A stretch of 51,783 bases of DNA from Candidatus Kuenenia stuttgartensis (GTDB lineage: Bacteria > Planctomycetota > Phycisphaerae > Phycisphaerales > SM1A02): NCBI GenBank assembly GCA_945902075.1, contig CAMDMA010000024.1, forward strand, positions 1 to 51,783, written 5' to 3'. The notes beneath the pieces were generated by a model. It saw only the letters and a list, made by a program, of their open reading frames with translations, had not been told where the DNA came from and ran no database searches. The position numbers and the translations under genes are program-made. Below, one piece after another: positions 2,117-18,380 of this stretch. Numbering within the stretch: the stretch's first letter is position 1; every line of letters starts with the position of its first letter.

Positions 2117-3217
2117 ATGCTTCACCTCGCGAAACACCTCGTCACCTTGATCGCAACCATCGTTGCCGCATGCGCCGTCAGCGCGGAGACGTTCGCGCAG
2201 GTTGCTGTGCCACCTTCGGCCTCGCCGCTGAAGGTCGGCGTCTTCGTCGAGGCACCGTTTGTCACCAAGGACGCGAAAGGGACGCTCGACGGATTTTCGG
2301 TCGAGGTGTGGAAGGCCATCGAGCCAAAACTCGGAGTCACCGCCAACTTCTGCGAATTCGACTCCTTCCCCGCGCTTGTGGAGGCTGTGGCCTCCGGTTC
2401 GATTGACCTTGCAGTTTGCGGGATGTTGATGACAAGTGCTCTAGAGCACCGTCTGGAGTTCACCCATCCAGTCGCCAACGGCGGCCTGCGGGTGATGGTG
2501 GATTCCGCCCCGAAACATTCGCTGCAAGCACTATGGCGCGGACTCGTGGAGAACGGGCACGTCACCATTCTTGGCTACGGCGCACTGATCGTCGGTGCGT
2601 GCAGTATTCCGCTGATGTTTATCTGGCGAAAGCTCGACAAGGACTTCCCTGCAACCCCTCATGATGGTTTCGCGGAGGCGTTCTATCGAACGGTTTCACT
2701 CACTATGAGTGGCAAAGCGAAGGTGACCACCGTCTCGACGTGGATCACCAAGCTTCTCGCCGCCTGTTGGCTTGTCTGCGGAGTGGGAATTGTTGCGTAT
2801 GTGACATCAAGCGTCACTGCGGTGATGACTACACAGTCGTTGCGACAGTCGATCAACAGTGTCGATGACCTTGCTGGGAAGCCCGTGGGCGTGATCACTG
2901 GAACACTCGGCGAATCGTACTGCGTGAGTCGCGGTTTTGAGACGCGCACATTTCTCACGATAAAAGCTGCCGTCGACGCGCTCGTTGCGCACGAGGTCCT
3001 TGCACTCGTCGCGGACGGTCCGGAATTGGAGGCGTTTGATCAGGCGAACCCCGCGCTCCCGATCACGGAGGTTGGTCCGCTCTTTGCGAAGCGCCGCTAC
3101 GCGTTTGCGGTACCGATGCACAGCGCGCTCCGACACCGCATCAACATCGCCCTCGTCGAAATCGAGGAATCAGGCGAATCTGAGAAGATCCACAGGAAGT
3201 ATTTTGGCGACGCCTGA
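2117..3217 (+). CDS. Prokaryotic ionotropic glutamate receptor-like channel (GluR0 type)
   Basis: 366 residues. A signal peptide (1-28) leads into the first lobe of a family-3 solute-binding fold (about 38-132, including 'GFSVEVWKAIE' and an Arg at about 112 in the 'ERxxxFsxP'-type position). Next come a membrane helix (149-171), a re-entrant pore-loop region (184-206), a second membrane helix (212-236) and the second binding lobe (about 248-364). This split-lobe layout is that of bacterial ligand-gated ion channels ancestral to eukaryotic glutamate receptors, in which ligand binding outside the cytoplasm opens a tetrameric pore. The pore segment reads 'SLTMSGKAKVTT' where K+-selective relatives carry a T-V-G-Y-G signature, so K+ selectivity is doubtful. 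The ligand is probably an amino acid, by inference. It converges on the glycosyltransferase gene with an 18-bp gap. Confidence 0.8.
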   Translation: MLHLAKHLVTLIATIVAACAVSAETFAQVAVPPSASPLKVGVFVEAPFVTKDAKGTLDGFSVEVWKAIEPKLGVTANFCEFDSFPALVEAVASGSIDLAVCGMLMTSALEHRLEFTHPVANGGLRVMVDSAPKHSLQALWRGLVENGHVTILGYGALIVGACSIPLMFIWRKLDKDFPATPHDGFAEAFYRTVSLTMSGKAKVTTVSTWITKLLAACWLVCGVGIVAYVTSSVTAVMTTQSLRQSINSVDDLAGKPVGVITGTLGESYCVSRGFETRTFLTIKAAVDALVAHEVLALVADGPELEAFDQANPALPITEVGPLFAKRRYAFAVPMHSALRHRINIALVEIEESGESEKIHRKYFGDA

Positions 3218-11555: not shown

Positions 11556-13628
11556 ATGCTCTTGAATGCTGAACGTTGGCTTTATCTCCCTGCCGTCGCA
11601 CTTCTCGTCGCCGCGCCAGTCCACGCCGACGAAGGTATGTGGCTCCCAAACGCGCTGCCCCTGGCAACCCTGCAAGCCAAGTTCGGGTTCCAACCGACCC
11701 CGGCATGGACAGAACACCTGCAGAAGTCTGCGGTGCGATTTTCAACCGGCGGCTCCGGCTCGCTCGTCTCGCCCGATGGGCTCGTGATGACCAACCACCA
11801 TGTCGGCAGCGACATGCTTGCGAAACTGTCCACGCCCGAACGCGATTTGCTCGCCACGGGCTTCCTCGCGACGTCGCGGGCTGAAGAGCTTCCCTGCCCG
11901 GATCTGGAGTTAAACATCCTCTGGGAGATTGAGGACGTCACCGCGCGGGTCAACGCTGCCGCGAACGGCTTGACGGACCTCTCCGCAGCTGGCGCCGCCA
12001 AACGCAAGGCCGTCGCCGCGATTGAGGACGAAAGCAATACCGCGAGCGGACTCACGAGCGAAGTCGTCGCGCTCTACCAAGGCGGCCGCTACCACCTCTA
12101 TCGCTATCGCACGTACCGCGACGTGCGACTCGTTTTTGCGCCGGAGACTGCCATCGCGTTCTTCGGCGGCGATGCCGACAACTTCGAGTTTCCCCGCTAC
12201 GACCTCGACTGCTGCTTCTTTCGCATTTACGAAGACGGCAAGCCTCTGGTGCCAACCCACCACCTTGCGTGGGATGTTGGTGAAGGGAAAGATGGCGCAC
12301 GCGAAGGCGAACTCGTTTTTACTTGGGGTCATCCTGGGTCGACCAATCGACTCTACACCGCAGATCACGTTGCCTTTCTGCGCGATGTTGAGGAGCCTCT
12401 CTCACTCAAGCGCCTCTGGCGCAACGAAGTCCGACTCGCAAGTTTCATGGGGCGCAGCGCAGAGAATGCGCGCATCGCTCGCGAAGATTTTTTCGGCACA
12501 CAAAATGGACGCAAAGCAACGCAGGGACTTGTCGATGCTCTCCAGGATCCCGCACTCGTTGCCGCAAAGCGCGCTGAAGAAACCGCGCTCCTCGCACAAC
12601 TCACAGGAAAACCCGAAGCCGCACGCTTCGAGCGGGGCCGTGCCCAGGTGAAAGGATCACTCGAGGCTTCGAAACGTCTCGCAGCCGACTACTTCGCGCT
12701 TGAGCGGCGATTTCGCGGTGGCGACCTCGCACAAATCGCACGCACGATCGTGCGACTTCAGGCTGAGAGCGAAAAGCCAAGTGCAGATCGACTTCCTGAA
12801 TACGGCGATGCGAACCGCGCGTCGCTTGAAGCGATGCTCTACTCACCCGCACCGATCTACGCCGCACTGGAAGTTGAGCGGATGACGTCCTGGCTCTCGT
12901 CGCTTGCGGAAGATCGCGGCCTTGACGACGCACTCGTTTCGAAGTTGCTCGCCGGGAAAAGCCCGCGCGCGCGGGCGACAGAACTTGTGCATGGAACAAA
13001 GCTCACCGATGTGCAAGCGCGGCGGAAGCTTGACGCCACCGATCCAATGATTGCGTTTGTGGCGTCGATCGACGCCGACGCGCGCCGAGCACGGAAAGCG
13101 TGGGAGGACGAGGTCGACAGCCCGCAAAAGCTCGGATACGCCGATATCGCCGCCGCGCGGTTCGCCGCACTGGGCGACAGCGTGTATCCCGATGCCACTT
13201 TCACACTTCGCATGAGTTACGGAACCGTACAAGGTTGGACGAGCGAAACCTCTGAGCGCGTTCCAGCCTTTACGACGATTGGTGGGACGTTTGATCGCGC
13301 CAAAGAACGCGCGGGCGAGGCGGGTTTCGAACTTCCTCAGTCATGGCTCGACGCGCGCGCGCAACTCAATACTGCAACCCCATTCAACTTCGTCTCGACC
13401 AACGACATCATCGGCGGCAATTCGGGCTCACCGATTGTCGATGTCGATGGCGAGATCGTCGGTCTCATCTTTGATGGAAATCTCGACAGCCTCGCCGGTG
13501 ATGTTGTCTTCGAAATCACGCGCAACCGCGCGGTGTCGGTCGATGCGCGAGGAATGCTCGAAGCAATGCGTGTGGTCTACGGTGCTGGCGTGCTCGTTGA
13601 CGAGATGACCTCGGCTCGGAAGCCCTGA
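11556..13628 (+). CDS. S46 family dipeptidyl peptidase (DPP7/DPP11 type)
   Basis: 690 residues, close to the family's usual 700-720. A signal peptide (1-24, cut near 'VHADEG') exports it to the periplasm, where the family releases N-terminal dipeptides from oligopeptides. The mature start 'DEGMWLPNALP' is characteristic. The chymotrypsin-like triad is visible as His in 'TNHHVGSD' (81/82), Asp in 'FEFPRYDLD' (about 220-225) and Ser in 'GGNSGSPIVD' (about 617). The long helical insert between them (about 290-530) is the S46 cap domain. The specificity loop 'GLIFDGNLDSLAGD' is present, but I cannot tell DPP7-like from DPP11-like preference. The M28-fusion gene follows 51 bp downstream, suggesting joint peptide breakdown. 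Confidence 0.9.
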   Translation: MLLNAERWLYLPAVALLVAAPVHADEGMWLPNALPLATLQAKFGFQPTPAWTEHLQKSAVRFSTGGSGSLVSPDGLVMTNHHVGSDMLAKLSTPERDLLATGFLATSRAEELPCPDLELNILWEIEDVTARVNAAANGLTDLSAAGAAKRKAVAAIEDESNTASGLTSEVVALYQGGRYHLYRYRTYRDVRLVFAPETAIAFFGGDADNFEFPRYDLDCCFFRIYEDGKPLVPTHHLAWDVGEGKDGAREGELVFTWGHPGSTNRLYTADHVAFLRDVEEPLSLKRLWRNEVRLASFMGRSAENARIAREDFFGTQNGRKATQGLVDALQDPALVAAKRAEETALLAQLTGKPEAARFERGRAQVKGSLEASKRLAADYFALERRFRGGDLAQIARTIVRLQAESEKPSADRLPEYGDANRASLEAMLYSPAPIYAALEVERMTSWLSSLAEDRGLDDALVSKLLAGKSPRARATELVHGTKLTDVQARRKLDATDPMIAFVASIDADARRARKAWEDEVDSPQKLGYADIAAARFAALGDSVYPDATFTLRMSYGTVQGWTSETSERVPAFTTIGGTFDRAKERAGEAGFELPQSWLDARAQLNTATPFNFVSTNDIIGGNSGSPIVDVDGEIVGLIFDGNLDSLAGDVVFEITRNRAVSVDARGMLEAMRVVYGAGVLVDEMTSARKP

Positions 13629-13673: not shown

Positions 13674-13679
13674 TTGGGC

Positions 13680-16211
13680 ATGCATCAAGCTCTTCGCGCA
13701 CTTGCCGCGTGCATCGTCACACTTGCAAACTCGATTGCGCTCGCGGATCGCACCTCGGATCCAATTCCGAAGCTCGACCCTACGACGATTGGCGCCGACA
13801 TCGCAGAACTCGCTTCTGACGCGATGAACGGCCGTGCGTTTCGGACCGAGGACGGGCGGCGCGCTGCGCAGTGGGTCGCAGACAAACTCGCAGCGGCTGG
13901 CGCAGTTCCACTCGCGGGGCGCGACTCGATGCTCGTACCGATCGCACGCATGCCCGCGGCGTCGCCAAACGTTGTCGCGTGGATTCCACCAGCCGGCCCG
14001 AAGCCGAGCGGCGAGTACATCCTCGTGACCGCGCACTACGACCATCTGCCGCCGAAGTCAGGCGCGCGTGCGGAGGAGGATGCGATTTATAACGGTGCCG
14101 ATGACAATGCGAGCGGCACTTGCGGGATGATCGCCGTCGCCAACGCGATGCGCGCCGATGCGCTCGATGTCGGTGTGGTTTTTGTCGCTTTCACCGGCGA
14201 AGAGGCTGGACTCATCGGGAGCCGCGCGTTCGTGGAGGAGGAAACGCTTCCAATCGCGCGTCTTCGCGGGGTTTTCAATTTGGACATGATCTCGCGCCAG
14301 CCGGACGGTGCGATCCGTCTCGACGGTGGCGAGAAAGGCAAGCCGCTCACTGATGTACTCGTTCGCCTCGCCCCTTTGGTCCCGCTTGAGATGAAGGTCG
14401 ACACCCATCCTGACTGGCTCAGTCGCAGCGATCAAGGAGCATTTCTCGCCGTCGGCGTTCCGGCTGTGCTCTTCAGCTGCGAAGACCACGAGGACTATCA
14501 CAAGGTCACCGATCACGCGGACAAAATCGATGCTGTGCTTGCAGCCAAAGTCTCCGCGCTTGTCGTCGGTGCGGTGCGAACATTCGCTGTGGAGATGAGT
14601 CCACGCTTTGACACATCGCCATTCTGCGATGACCTTGGCGTACCGACGCGCACCATTCGTGTCGGGCGCACCATGCCGAACCCGCCGTACTGGAAGCCTG
14701 CAACGCGCCGTGATCCTGACCGAGGCGTTGTGCCTGCGATCCTCGAGGCGCTCTCCCAAGAGCGGGGTTGGAAGTTCGAGGAAAAGGCGATTCCCATCGG
14801 CGGCGAGGTGGCCGCACTTGAATCGGGTGAGGTCGATCTTGTCGCGAATGGCACAGTACCCATGGCCATCGACGATGCGCGCGCGGAGTCGCTCGCGTCG
14901 ATTGCGTTTGTGACGCAGAGCGGTGTTGGCGCATTGGTCGCCGCGCTCTCACCGCTTCAAAATGCCAAGGATTTTGAAGTGTCGGCCGGCGACGGGCTCC
15001 GTCTCGGCGTGCGCAGCGGAACTGCCGGTGCGCGTTGGCGCGCGTTGTTTGCAAACAAATCAACCGCTGTCATGCTCAATGGACCAGAAGGTGTCGCCGC
15101 CTCGCAGGTTGAGAAGAGTGAACTCACGGCAATCCTCGGTGACCTCTTATCGCTCACCCAACGCGCCGCTCGCGATCCCGCGTTTCGAGTGATCGTCCTC
15201 GACCGTGCGCCAAACATCGTGCTCACGCGCGCAGCCGACCGCCGATTTCTCGAAGCGCTCGCGCCGATCCTCGACGGTTTGCGCACGCGCGGAGTGTTCG
15301 CGCCAAGCCTTGAGAAGGCTGGGCTCAGCACACATGCTGTCATCGGCCAAGATAAGGGCCGCGTGAAACTCCTCTCGCCGACGGGCTCGGTCGAATGGGA
15401 GTATCCCTGCGATCACAACTCGCATGATCTCCAGGTGCTCGCCAACGGAAACTTCCTGCTTCATCCCGCATCGGATCGCATCATCGAGGTCACGCGCGAC
15501 AAACGCATCGTGTGGGAATGGAGAAGCCAGCCCGTAGCACCGTACGTAGGACGAGTTGAAATCCATGGATTTCAGCGGCTAGCTGACGGCAACACGATGA
15601 TCGCTGAGACTGGAAATCTGCGTATTCTTGAAGTCACCGCAAACGGCGCGATCGTGAAGGCTGTGCCGATCCTTGTCGAACGCCCGGACGCGCATCGTGA
15701 TACACGCCGCGTCCGGAAGACTGATGCTGGGACCTACCTCGTCTGCCACGAAGGCCTCGGCCTCGTGCGGGAGTACAACGCGAGTGGTCAGGTGATCTGG
15801 GAATACACACTTGATTTGAACGGCCAACCCGCAACCGGCGGGCAAGACGGGCACGGAACGAGCGTGTTTCATGCGCTGCGCCTTCCGAACGGCAACACGC
15901 TGATCGGCGGTGGCAACAACAATCGTGTGATGGAAGTGACCGCGGAGAAGAAGATCGTCTGGTCGATCGAACGCGACGAGCTCAAGCGTCCAGACGGCCG
16001 GGCAATTCGCCTTTGCTGGGTCACGAGCTTACAAGCGCTTCCGAATGGAAACATCATCGTTGGGAATACGCACGCGGGACCGGAGCAGCCGCAGATGTTC
16101 GAAGTCACGCGCGCGAAAAAAGTCGTTTGGATGCTCGACGATTGGAGCGCATTTGGAAACGACCTTTGCACTGGATGGTGCCTTGATCTCCCGGAAGGAA
16201 CACTTCGATGA
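13680..16211 (+). CDS. Triple fusion: M28 metallopeptidase + solute-binding domain + beta-propeller
   Basis: 843 residues in one open frame. A signal peptide covers 1-23. The M28 zinc aminopeptidase module (about 30-305) has all expected ligands: His119 in 'AHYDHL', Asp142 in 'GADDNASG', catalytic Glu174 and ligand Glu175 in 'GEEAGLIGS', Asp202 in 'NLDM' and His274 in 'DYHKVTDH'. Residues about 322-548 look like a family-3 periplasmic binding domain: 'TIRVGRTMPNPPYW', 'GVVPAILEALSQERGW' and 'EVAALESGEVDLVANG', then a second lobe from 'GLRLGVRSG'. Residues about 550-843 are a propeller with repeated 'LxNGNtLi' strands like the next gene. Export is likely, so the protein could bind and trim peptides in the periplasm. 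I know of no described protein with this order. The stop overlaps a possible next start (ATGA at 16208-16211). Confidence 0.8.
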   Translation: MHQALRALAACIVTLANSIALADRTSDPIPKLDPTTIGADIAELASDAMNGRAFRTEDGRRAAQWVADKLAAAGAVPLAGRDSMLVPIARMPAASPNVVAWIPPAGPKPSGEYILVTAHYDHLPPKSGARAEEDAIYNGADDNASGTCGMIAVANAMRADALDVGVVFVAFTGEEAGLIGSRAFVEEETLPIARLRGVFNLDMISRQPDGAIRLDGGEKGKPLTDVLVRLAPLVPLEMKVDTHPDWLSRSDQGAFLAVGVPAVLFSCEDHEDYHKVTDHADKIDAVLAAKVSALVVGAVRTFAVEMSPRFDTSPFCDDLGVPTRTIRVGRTMPNPPYWKPATRRDPDRGVVPAILEALSQERGWKFEEKAIPIGGEVAALESGEVDLVANGTVPMAIDDARAESLASIAFVTQSGVGALVAALSPLQNAKDFEVSAGDGLRLGVRSGTAGARWRALFANKSTAVMLNGPEGVAASQVEKSELTAILGDLLSLTQRAARDPAFRVIVLDRAPNIVLTRAADRRFLEALAPILDGLRTRGVFAPSLEKAGLSTHAVIGQDKGRVKLLSPTGSVEWEYPCDHNSHDLQVLANGNFLLHPASDRIIEVTRDKRIVWEWRSQPVAPYVGRVEIHGFQRLADGNTMIAETGNLRILEVTANGAIVKAVPILVERPDAHRDTRRVRKTDAGTYLVCHEGLGLVREYNASGQVIWEYTLDLNGQPATGGQDGHGTSVFHALRLPNGNTLIGGGNNNRVMEVTAEKKIVWSIERDELKRPDGRAIRLCWVTSLQALPNGNIIVGNTHAGPEQPQMFEVTRAKKVVWMLDDWSAFGNDLCTGWCLDLPEGTLR

Positions 16212-16270
16212 TGCAGCCTTTCAATCACACGCATGGTGGTGACGTCACACTCGCAACGAAGGACGCAGCC

Positions 16271-17206
16271 ATGTGTCCGTTCTTACGCGGCCTCCTCGGG
16301 AGCCTACTCGTCGTTTCCGCTGCTCTCGCCGCGAGTCCGACCGATGGCGCAATCACGCACCGCTTCATCGCCTTTGGCAGTTCGACTCGTATCGTTGAGG
16401 CTGATGGAACGACCTCGTGGACCTATCCCGAGTCAACGCGCGATGGGCAAGTACTTCAGAACGGCAACATCTTGCTCGCGCTGTCAAAAAGCGAAAAATA
16501 TCCCGGTGGTGCGGTCGTCGAGGTAACCCCTGCGGGCACCACGGGAGGCAAGATTGTCTTTGAATTTGCGGGCACACAGAGCGAGATCAACACGGTGCAG
16601 CGCCTTGAGAATGGCAACACGCTCGTCGTCGAAGCAGGCGCGCGACCGCGTATTCTCGAACTCGACCGTCGCGGTCGGATTGCAATTGAACTCGCGCTGC
16701 GCGGACAGACCGACAACCATCACATGCAATCGCGGATGACGCGCAAACTGGCCCAAGGGCATTATCTCGTTCCGCAACTTCTCGATCGCGTCGTGCGTCA
16801 GTACACGCCCAAGGGCGACATCGCATGGGAGTACAAGACACCCGATGAGCCGAAGGATGCGTGGCCGTTCACGGCGATTCGGCTTGACAATGGCAACACG
16901 CTCATCACCTGCACCCATGCCAACATGGTGATTGAGGTCGATGCTGCAGGCGCCATCGTGTGGAAAGTGTCGAACGCGGATTTCGAGAAGCCGTTCCTCA
17001 ACGACCCCTGCGGCGCGCAACGCCTCGCGAATGGCAACACCGTGATCTGTAGTTACGCCGTTGGCGAGGGTGGAACAAAGTTGGTCGAAGTGACGCGTGA
17101 AAAGAAGGTTGTGTGGACGTTTGTCGAATCGGACGGACCAGGCATCCATGAGGTCCAGATTCTCGCGACCGACGGTGTGACGCTGCCTGAACGACCAATG
17201 CGCTGA
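16271..17206 (+). CDS. Exported beta-propeller protein (arylsulfotransferase/PQQ-like repeats)
   Basis: 311 residues from ATG 16271. That start is chosen for a GAAGGA ribosome site seven bases upstream and an immediate signal peptide ('CPFLRGLLGSLLVV', cut near 'ALAASP'). ATGs at 16208 and 16211, coupled to the previous stop, are alternatives. At least four blades carry 'LxNGNtll' turns ('LQNGNILLAL', 'LENGNTLVVE', 'LDNGNTLITC', 'LANGNTVICS'), each followed by 'V.EV....kkVvW'. The same motif set forms the last 290 residues of the preceding fusion, so one probably arose from the other. No catalytic residues can be assigned; a binding or scaffold role is plausible. Confidence 0.75.
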   Translation: MCPFLRGLLGSLLVVSAALAASPTDGAITHRFIAFGSSTRIVEADGTTSWTYPESTRDGQVLQNGNILLALSKSEKYPGGAVVEVTPAGTTGGKIVFEFAGTQSEINTVQRLENGNTLVVEAGARPRILELDRRGRIAIELALRGQTDNHHMQSRMTRKLAQGHYLVPQLLDRVVRQYTPKGDIAWEYKTPDEPKDAWPFTAIRLDNGNTLITCTHANMVIEVDAAGAIVWKVSNADFEKPFLNDPCGAQRLANGNTVICSYAVGEGGTKLVEVTREKKVVWTFVESDGPGIHEVQILATDGVTLPERPMR

Positions 17207-17462: not shown

Positions 17463-18380
17463 ATGCTCGCTACCACAATCCTCGCCTCGCTTCTCGCCTC
17501 CGCCACTCCCGCTGTCGTCGCCGATGCCACCATCGTCGAAACCGCCATCGCCGCTGGCGACTTCAAGACTCTTGTTGCCGCCGTTCAGGCAGCCGACCTC
17601 GTCGAGACGCTGAACGGCAAGGGCCCGTTCACCGTGTTCGCACCAACCGATGCGGCATTCGCCAAGCTTCCGCCGGAAACCCTGGCGATGCTGCTCAAGC
17701 CAGAGAACAAGGCCAAGCTCGCAGCGATCCTCACCTACCACGTTGTCCCCGGTTCGGTGAAGGCGGCTGATGTTGTCAAGCTCAAGACCGCAGGCTCCGT
17801 TCAGGGCCAGCGCGTCGACATCAAAGTTGACGGCGCGAACGTGACTGTCGACGGCGCGAAGGTCGTCAAGACCGACATCGGCTGCTCCAACGGCGTCATT
17901 CACGTCATCGACACCGTCATCCTCCCGGTCGATGGAACCATCGTTGACGTCGCCGCAAAGAATGGCTCCTTCAACACGCTCGTCGCGGCTGTCAAGGCCG
18001 CGGGTCTCGTCGAGACTCTCTCCGGCAAGGGTCCGTTCACCGTGCTCGCCCCAACCGATGCGGCATTCGCGAAGCTCCCGGCTGGCACCCTTGAAATGCT
18101 TCTCAAGCCTGAGAACAAGAAGCAACTCGCGGCCATCCTCACCTACCACGTCGTCCCGGGAGTCGCCGCCTACGCGGACCAGGTGGTCAAGATGAAGGAA
18201 GTCCCCACCGTCCTCGGAAGCCCAATCGCGGTTTCAGTGGTCGACGGCAAGGTCATGCTCGGGAACGCAACGGTTGTTGCGACCGACGTCGAGGCTTCGA
18301 ACGGCGTGATCCACGTGATCGACACCGTGCTCCTCCCGTCGCCAGAGAAGAAGGCGCAGACGACCGCTTCAGAGGAGTGA
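17463..18380 (+). CDS. Secreted protein with two fasciclin (FAS1) domains
   Basis: 305 residues with a short signal peptide (1-20). Two tandem FAS1 domains follow (about 22-158 and 159-294). Each has the H1 box '[17 protein letters not shown]' or '[17 protein letters not shown]', '[12 protein letters not shown]' and the H2 end '[11 protein letters not shown]'. FAS1 domains are extracellular adhesion modules. The two copies are alike at DNA level too, which points to a fairly recent internal duplication. A purine-rich AGGAATGAG about nine bases before ATG is a likely ribosome site, so this gene is leadered. A strong terminator follows the stop. The Lys/Ala/Ser-rich tail shows no membrane anchor. 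Confidence 0.92.

Follow-up and report, generated by a model that had tools for sequence, protein, structure and literature searches.

Why would an exported peptidase carry a transporter-type solute-binding domain in its own chain? This question is raised by one gene in a stretch of 51,783 nucleotides (hereafter the window, meaning the whole stretch of DNA analysed) from Candidatus Kuenenia stuttgartensis (GTDB lineage Phycisphaerales; SM1A02; assembly GCA_945902075.1, contig CAMDMA010000024.1). A preliminary description, made by eye from the letters and a list of open reading frames, had read its product as a single exported protein joining an M28 peptidase with all zinc ligands, a domain resembling family-3 amino-acid-binding proteins and a beta-propeller like that of the neighbouring gene, and had proposed that the binding module captures the released amino acid or senses the product. 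Here, the layout proved real, and for the binding domain we favour, tentatively, a role in the control of the peptidase over the capture of its products.

Three domains in one continuous chain

Translation of the gene (Table 1) gave a single frame of 843 residues plus a stop, with an in-frame TTG at 13,674 as an alternative start that makes the protein two residues longer. A Pfam scan of the whole protein found the M28 family (1.5e-34), the solute-binding-protein (SBP) family SBP_bac_3 below threshold (0.00024) and two propeller families above their cut-offs, and each of the three domains was matched by profile or by fold. The preliminary description had allowed for orthologues that show the parts as separate genes, with a frameshift in the window copy. 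Some orthologues do have the propeller elsewhere or lack it. A frameshift or assembly artefact in the window gene was nevertheless ruled out, because 12 other genomes of two genera keep the same continuous three-domain frame. It is thus virtually certain that an apparent signal peptide, an M28 domain, an SBP_bac_3-type domain and a propeller are joined in one chain. No description of this architecture was found in searches of an open-access library, in agreement with the earlier claim that it was undescribed.

Table 1 Features of the M28-SBP-propeller gene and its two neighbours in the window
Feature	Positions	Strand	Basis
Upstream neighbour, S46 dipeptidyl peptidase	11556..13628	+	PF10459 7.2e-195; ends 51 bases before the M28 gene
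Whole gene, M28-SBP-propeller protein (apparently exported)	13680..16211	+	Translation; same unbroken frame in 12 other genomes, 3 of which enter M28 at a contig edge
Apparent N-terminal signal peptide, residues 1-23	13680..13748	+	By eye; hydrophobic N-terminal stretch in orthologues too
M28 peptidase domain, Pfam match residues 97-296 (fold matches ~29-307)	13968..14567	+	PF04389 1.5e-34; Vibrio/Streptomyces aminopeptidases Z 19-21
H119, first M28 metal-ligand residue	14034..14036	+	Identical in 24/24 M28 rows
Conserved linker, residues 306-319; M306, R309, D311, P314 invariant	14595..14636	+	Alignment
SBP_bac_3-type two-lobed binding-protein domain, residues ~320-548	14637..15323	+	PF00497 in 16/16 rows; PDB profile search; fold
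Loop residues 338-348, invariant W338, R343, R344, R348	14691..14723	+	Alignment; R348 common to two of the four compared SBPs
Beta-propeller domain, residues 555-843	15342..16208	+	PF22701 40.4 bits, PF14269 30.1 bits, both above cut-off; 3no2 Z 28.3
Downstream neighbour, separate propeller paralogue	16208..17206	+	ATG 16208 (overlaps stop) or 16271; the latter begins a better export signal by eye

The middle domain was recognised through its family. Alone, the window copy scored 25.0 bits against PF00497 (SBP_bac_3), just under the cut-off of 26.4, and reached a best E of 0.11 against PDB sequences. PF00497 nevertheless matched every one of the 16 aligned domains, including that of the window, with an E of at most 0.1 (the lowest being 1.6e-23), and a profile of the same 16 rows (window plus 15 orthologues) found 108 distinct PDB sequences at E ≤0.01, headed by GlnPQ SBD1-SBD2 at 5.2e-35. 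The SBP homology is firm, since this profile succeeds where the window copy alone is weak. An AlphaFold model of the domain (mean predicted local distance difference test score, pLDDT, 85.5; predicted template-modelling score, pTM, 0.80) matched a glutamine-binding protein at 1.6e-13 in Foldseek. With VIA-align, several glutamine-binding proteins at Z ~20 tied with chorismate mutase-cyclohexadienyl dehydratase fusions, the top seven rows having a root-mean-square deviation (rmsd) of 2.6-3.0 over 210-227 residues. The domain is therefore securely predicted to have the type-II two-lobed periplasmic-binding-protein fold of the SBP_bac_3 type, and the by-eye call of a family-3 domain is borne out by profile and structure. 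The dehydratase fusions (8pnj, 8cq3; Z 20.5-20.7) likewise hold an SBP fold within an enzyme chain; in them, we assume, the SBP fold itself is the enzyme, presumably unlike in the window protein.

The M28 domain scored 119.8 bits against a Pfam cut-off of 21.3 and shares its PF04389 match and its metal and catalytic residues with the aminopeptidases of Vibrio/Aeromonas (AAP, 1amp/3b35) and Streptomyces griseus (SGAP, 1xjo) and with YwaD (6hc6). Its fold matches AAP and SGAP, whose matched chains, however, are of single-domain length (271-299 residues), and no M28 match carries a matched SBP or propeller. All 24 aligned M28 rows, 14 that carry an SBP and 10 that do not, have the same residues at H119, D121, D141, E174, E175, D202 and H274. 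Taking the roles from the Vibrio/Aeromonas enzyme, we assume H119, D141, E175, D202 and H274 to be metal ligands and E174 the general base. The full set of zinc ligands noted earlier is thus present, and a zinc-dependent M28 exopeptidase with intact active-site residues is predicted. Planctomycete relatives made of M28 only (L020, L064, L115-L122) are 44-52% identical over this domain and have the same active-site residues, whereas their frames stop 6 to 48 residues past the aligned M28, without SBP or propeller.

We sampled 20 genomes of two genera of the family, most of them metagenome-assembled. Thirteen hold the fused three-domain form, four an M28-SBP protein without a propeller on the chain, one a broken frame, one was left unassigned and one lacks the gene. 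Within the window genus, an M28-SBP sequence was found at 1e-60 or better in 15 of 16 genomes (in G010 as the start of M28 only, in contig-edge pieces), G008 being the one without. The three-domain frame is complete in seven of the 16 (G000, G007, G009, G011, G012, G013, G015); in three others (G001, G005, G014) a contig edge lies inside M28 and the SBP and propeller follow in frame; in four (G002, G003, G004, G006) the M28-SBP frame ends in a stop. In G002 the propeller sits apart on a different contig (L039), as a frame of 352 residues with 80% identity to the window's; no propeller was found in G003, G004 and G006 (97, 88 and 82% complete). The second genus carries the fusion in G083, G106 and G123. 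M28 and SBP share one frame in all 18 genomes in which the junction is assembled; in both genera, M28-SBP forms the fixed core of this protein family, with the propeller as a partly removable addition. In G047, also of the second genus (L040, 4753-7427), the three-domain gene is split in the SBP part into two overlapping frames, the only broken relative found, which we read as an assembly error or decay.

Among 400 genomes of the order, 63 matched the M28-SBP profile at 1e-65 or better, 14 from the window genus, four from the second genus and 45 from seven other genera of the family, the last ending by profile position 310 and thus being M28 only. No other match spanning M28 and SBP was among the matches listed for 397 class and 392 phylum genomes, the genera concerned being g1 and g28 only; the phylum, class and order samples overlap, and in most genomes the three best first-look candidates were scored. 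Other phyla were reached only via a pattern scan, which gave 18 loci overall, one of them (L041, on a contig titled Armatimonadetes) with the propeller alone. The SBP alignment, run against 101 genomes of the family, had strong matches (1e-60 or better) in the same two genera only, and in the rest of the family the nearest M28 has no fused partner. In the tree of the M28 part, the M28-SBP proteins separate from ten M28-only relatives with a support of 100, while the branches ordering fused and split forms have supports of 27-48. Read most simply, a stand-alone M28 peptidase acquired an SBP domain in a single event, and the propeller joined at or near that point, later to be lost or split off. 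The separate G002 propeller clusters with a fused one at a support of 96 and the fused propellers of L030, L031 and L034 sit on a long branch, so there may have been a second propeller fusion.

A drifting pocket and a fixed set of tryptophan and arginine residues

For the pocket comparison, 17 fused domains were aligned with AncQR, GlnPQ SBD1 and two SBPs from other proteins of the family, and ten sites were taken from the glutamine/arginine-binding pocket. We take their numbers to be those of E. coli GlnBP, in which R75 presumably binds the alpha-carboxylate and D157 the alpha-amino group. Only three of the ten are well kept, namely G68 (17 of 17 rows), D157 (16 of 17) and a Ser or Thr at 118 (16 of 17). 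The carboxylate arginine R75 stands at the aligned site in eight of 17 rows, lies two columns off in the window copy and is missing in others, and the pocket aromatics are rarely kept (F13 in two rows and F50 in one). Mean pairwise identity is 0.425 over the ten columns versus 0.419 over all 211, and 46% of random sets score as high. Because the pocket is not specially conserved, any reading with a working classical pocket is weakened, including that of the preliminary description. In L030, L031 and L034, the SBP domain has an insert of ~20-25 residues at the carboxylate-arginine site.

The alignment indicates that something other than the classical pocket is fixed. Of the 24 invariant columns, four belong to the linker and nine are arginine, against 9% arginine in the sequences. 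R324, W338, R343, R344, R495 and R498 are invariant in 17 of 17 rows despite a domain identity of 25-43%; at these sites and at E384 the four compared SBPs show another letter or a gap. We assume from the SBP fold that the loop bearing the invariant Trp and Arg (Table 1) borders the cleft, and this loop, with the excess of invariant arginine, could speak for a cleft that binds peptides or an anionic polymer and brings the substrate to the M28 site. We hold such recruitment to be improbable: the arginines lie in a loop of low model confidence and may face another domain, and no peptide-binding family such as SBP_bac_5 was among the eight Pfam families matched by the middle domains. Compared with amino-acid SBPs (GlnBP 1wdn/8eyz, LAO 1lst, GlnPQ SBD 6h30, AncQR 4zv1), the domain is alike in sequence profile and fold; it differs in a partly lost pocket, in the family-specific Trp/Arg set and in being joined to a peptidase rather than a transporter.

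The three domains diverge at different rates. Identity to the window copy is 71-82% for full-length M28 and 63-78% for the propeller, against 25-43% for the SBP domain. As a control, SBP-permease fusions from six of the same species were compared in six same-type pairs, the two types having been grouped after the identities were seen; the transporter SBPs are 76-86% identical, while for the same pairs the peptidase-fused SBPs are 36-52% identical in five and 88% in the sixth, which is the closest pair. The two types of SBP-permease fusion in the genus (L101, L103, L105 versus L102, L104, L106) are 43-48% identical to each other. So fast a change of a receptor-like part is unusual and suggests that the domain has been put to a new use rather than simply catching nutrients.

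The same figures bear on our main rival explanation, a domain that no longer binds a ligand and whose part in the peptidase is structural, or one in dimerisation or docking. Such a spacer would suit the low identity of the SBP domain beside its M28 and propeller neighbours, the slower evolution of the permease-fused SBPs in five of six pairs and a pocket that is not specially conserved, and the invariant Arg/Trp set could form its interface. It fits poorly with the near fixation of G68, D157 and Ser/Thr118, with the prediction of a whole two-lobed fold and with the retention of the domain where the propeller is gone, and on balance we regard it as unlikely.

A binding domain proposed to control the peptidase

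Capture of the amino acid freed by M28, held or delivered for uptake by the SBP domain, was also considered in the light of the transporters present. No PAAT permease (TIGR01726) was found in the window genome (97% complete), nor in G003, G007, G009, G013 and G015 (97, 97, 78, 96 and 95% complete), and five of these six genomes carry the full three-domain frame, the propeller-less G003 being the exception. The same model did find a permease in ten of the genus's 16 genomes and in 11 of 14 controls. The window genome has three SBP_bac_3 matches, that is, the fusion and two proteins with channel-like membrane parts that interrupt or follow the SBP; two further matches that were checked, in G003 and G015, are channel-like as well. 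With no PAAT permease found and with channel-like other SBPs, hand-over to this transporter class is unlikely. Capture can still draw on the SBP_bac_3 homology and fold, on the retention of D157 and Ser/Thr118, and on the ten genomes with a PAAT permease; in the six compared, this permease forms one frame with an SBP of its own. Set against the scattered carboxylate arginine and aromatics, a pocket set at chance level and the six genomes in which no such permease was found, these points leave capture a weaker rival than the spacer and a rather doubtful explanation.

We therefore lean, with somewhat less than even confidence, towards a repurposed SBP domain that acts in cis on the exported peptidase, regulating it or selecting its substrates. 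It is read in this way because it is in frame with the peptidase at every assembled junction while its cleft drifts and its Trp/Arg residues stay fixed. The M28 part would trim N-terminal residues off peptides outside the cytoplasm, in the window genome perhaps following the S46 dipeptidyl peptidase of the upstream gene. The SBP domain would open and close on a ligand, which may be a peptide, an amino acid or another, perhaps anionic, molecule, and this movement would gate or select what the M28 site cuts; it would not be a receptor handing amino acids to an ABC transporter. Switching by binding-protein domains is familiar from channels and kinases. For a cell-wall enzyme, a parallel is the lytic transglycosylase MltF, whose regulatory domain we take to be SBP_bac_3-like and whose catalytic domain is switched by it in the manner proposed here. 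In a study on MltF, this envelope enzyme has a ligand-operated regulatory domain in the same chain, and its N-terminal domain turns the catalytic domain on when occupied by muropeptide (PMC10746161). MltF differs from the window protein in its unrelated catalytic domain, in having the regulatory domain first in the chain and in that a ligand is known for MltF only, and no SLT transglycosylase domain was among the 12 Pfam families at E up to 1 in the window protein. MltF is thus, in our view, a precedent for the mechanism and not for family membership.

Several points weigh against the regulatory or selecting role. The pocket set is no more conserved than average, and the peptidase-fused SBP diverges faster than the transporter SBP in most pairs, both of which would also fit a loss of ligand binding. 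The Trp/Arg loop falls below a pLDDT of 50 (residues 333-345 in the whole-chain model and 334-347 in the domain model), and the whole-chain model (mean pLDDT 78.4, pTM 0.58) suffices for the domains and not for their arrangement, giving no confident interdomain geometry. PAAT (TIGR01726) was the one permease class searched, and G009, counted among the PAAT-less genomes, is the 78% complete one. In G007, also PAAT-less, one frame (L146, 719-2476) joins SBP_bac_3 to a part matching PF03458 (Gly_transporter), another unusual SBP fusion; SBPs of the genus thus have further membrane partners. Lastly, the counts come mostly from metagenome assemblies.

The propeller, neighbouring genes and the wider meaning

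Of the propeller families, PF14269 passed its cut-off of 27 bits with a best stretch of only 31 residues, and PF05935 reached 12 bits against 24.2. In the whole-chain model, residues 551-836 align with 3no2, a Bacteroides caccae protein of unknown function, at an rmsd of 2.4 over 259 residues, and the fold is also shared with the sulfotransferases Cpz4 (9kf6, Z 22.6) and ASST (3ets, Z 21.4). Among the 29 propellers of the family (13 fused, 16 separate), H582, H629, H798, R676, R679, E643, E691 and W780 never vary, whereas one pairwise alignment places Glu and Gln of 3no2 opposite H582 and H629.

The likeness to the neighbouring propeller noted in the preliminary description holds, the neighbour being a paralogue 31-36% identical to the fused propeller. 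It and three relatives (four of four) have other residues at H582, H629, E691, W780, N796 and H798, all six of which are invariant in the 29 propellers, and keep E643, R676 and R679, so the paralogue differs at presumably funnel-facing positions, the possible place of a central active or binding site. The active site of this second propeller may have been lost. The propeller as a unique partner of M28-SBP was ruled out, as relatives in the same order occur alone or in other frames. Propellers of the same family stand in frames with other parts in the planctomycete loci L134, L135 and L144, where the domain looks like a mobile module of exported proteins; from their motifs, we take these partners to be cytochrome/DUF1549-like or DUF1080-like. 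The stand-alone propeller of L041 (6929-8023) is 69% identical to the window's, pointing to transfer or to a mis-binned planctomycete contig.

The S46 gene was found in seven of 16 genomes of the genus and a second propeller adjoins the fusion in some relatives only, so a constant operon with both was ruled out as a rule. A protein with two fasciclin domains is encoded beside the cluster (17463-18380, + strand); in L030 and L034, relatives of this protein lie ~7 kb away from the fusion. Elsewhere in the window, 2117-3217 (+ strand) encodes a protein of 366 residues whose SBP_bac_3 domain is split by a membrane segment (PF00497 1.3e-21; PF00060 Lig_chan 26.2 bits against a cut-off of 30.8). It is laid out like GluR0-type receptor channels, without the TVGYGD filter shown by similarly built proteins of L056, L059, L060 and contig C13 of the window genome, the last matching PF07885 and PF00060. 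Its relatives in L107 (G015, on the fusion's contig) and L109 are 49-54% identical.

The planctomycetes carrying the fusion are mostly known from lake and pond samples. Among lake planctomycetes, the CL500-3 clade (Nemodlikiaceae) is described as auxotrophic for several amino acids and as amino-acid degrading, and a peptide-degrading surface complex is proposed for it (PMC6461901). In its boldest form, for which we see only a small chance, the proposal is of a ligand-gated secreted exopeptidase: a transporter-type domain would have been captured once by M28 in the ancestor of the two genera, lost its uptake role and been rewired at the cleft round the Trp/Arg set, with specificity drifting by species, and the propeller, with its invariant His, Arg and Glu, would be a second active domain, giving a cutter, a sensor and a second enzyme in one chain. 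A peptidase under the control of a binding domain, if true, would be new and would show how a bacterium living on dissolved protein could adjust its extracytoplasmic digestion. The 17 orthologous domains, for their part, form a natural series for measuring the drift of a captured binding domain.

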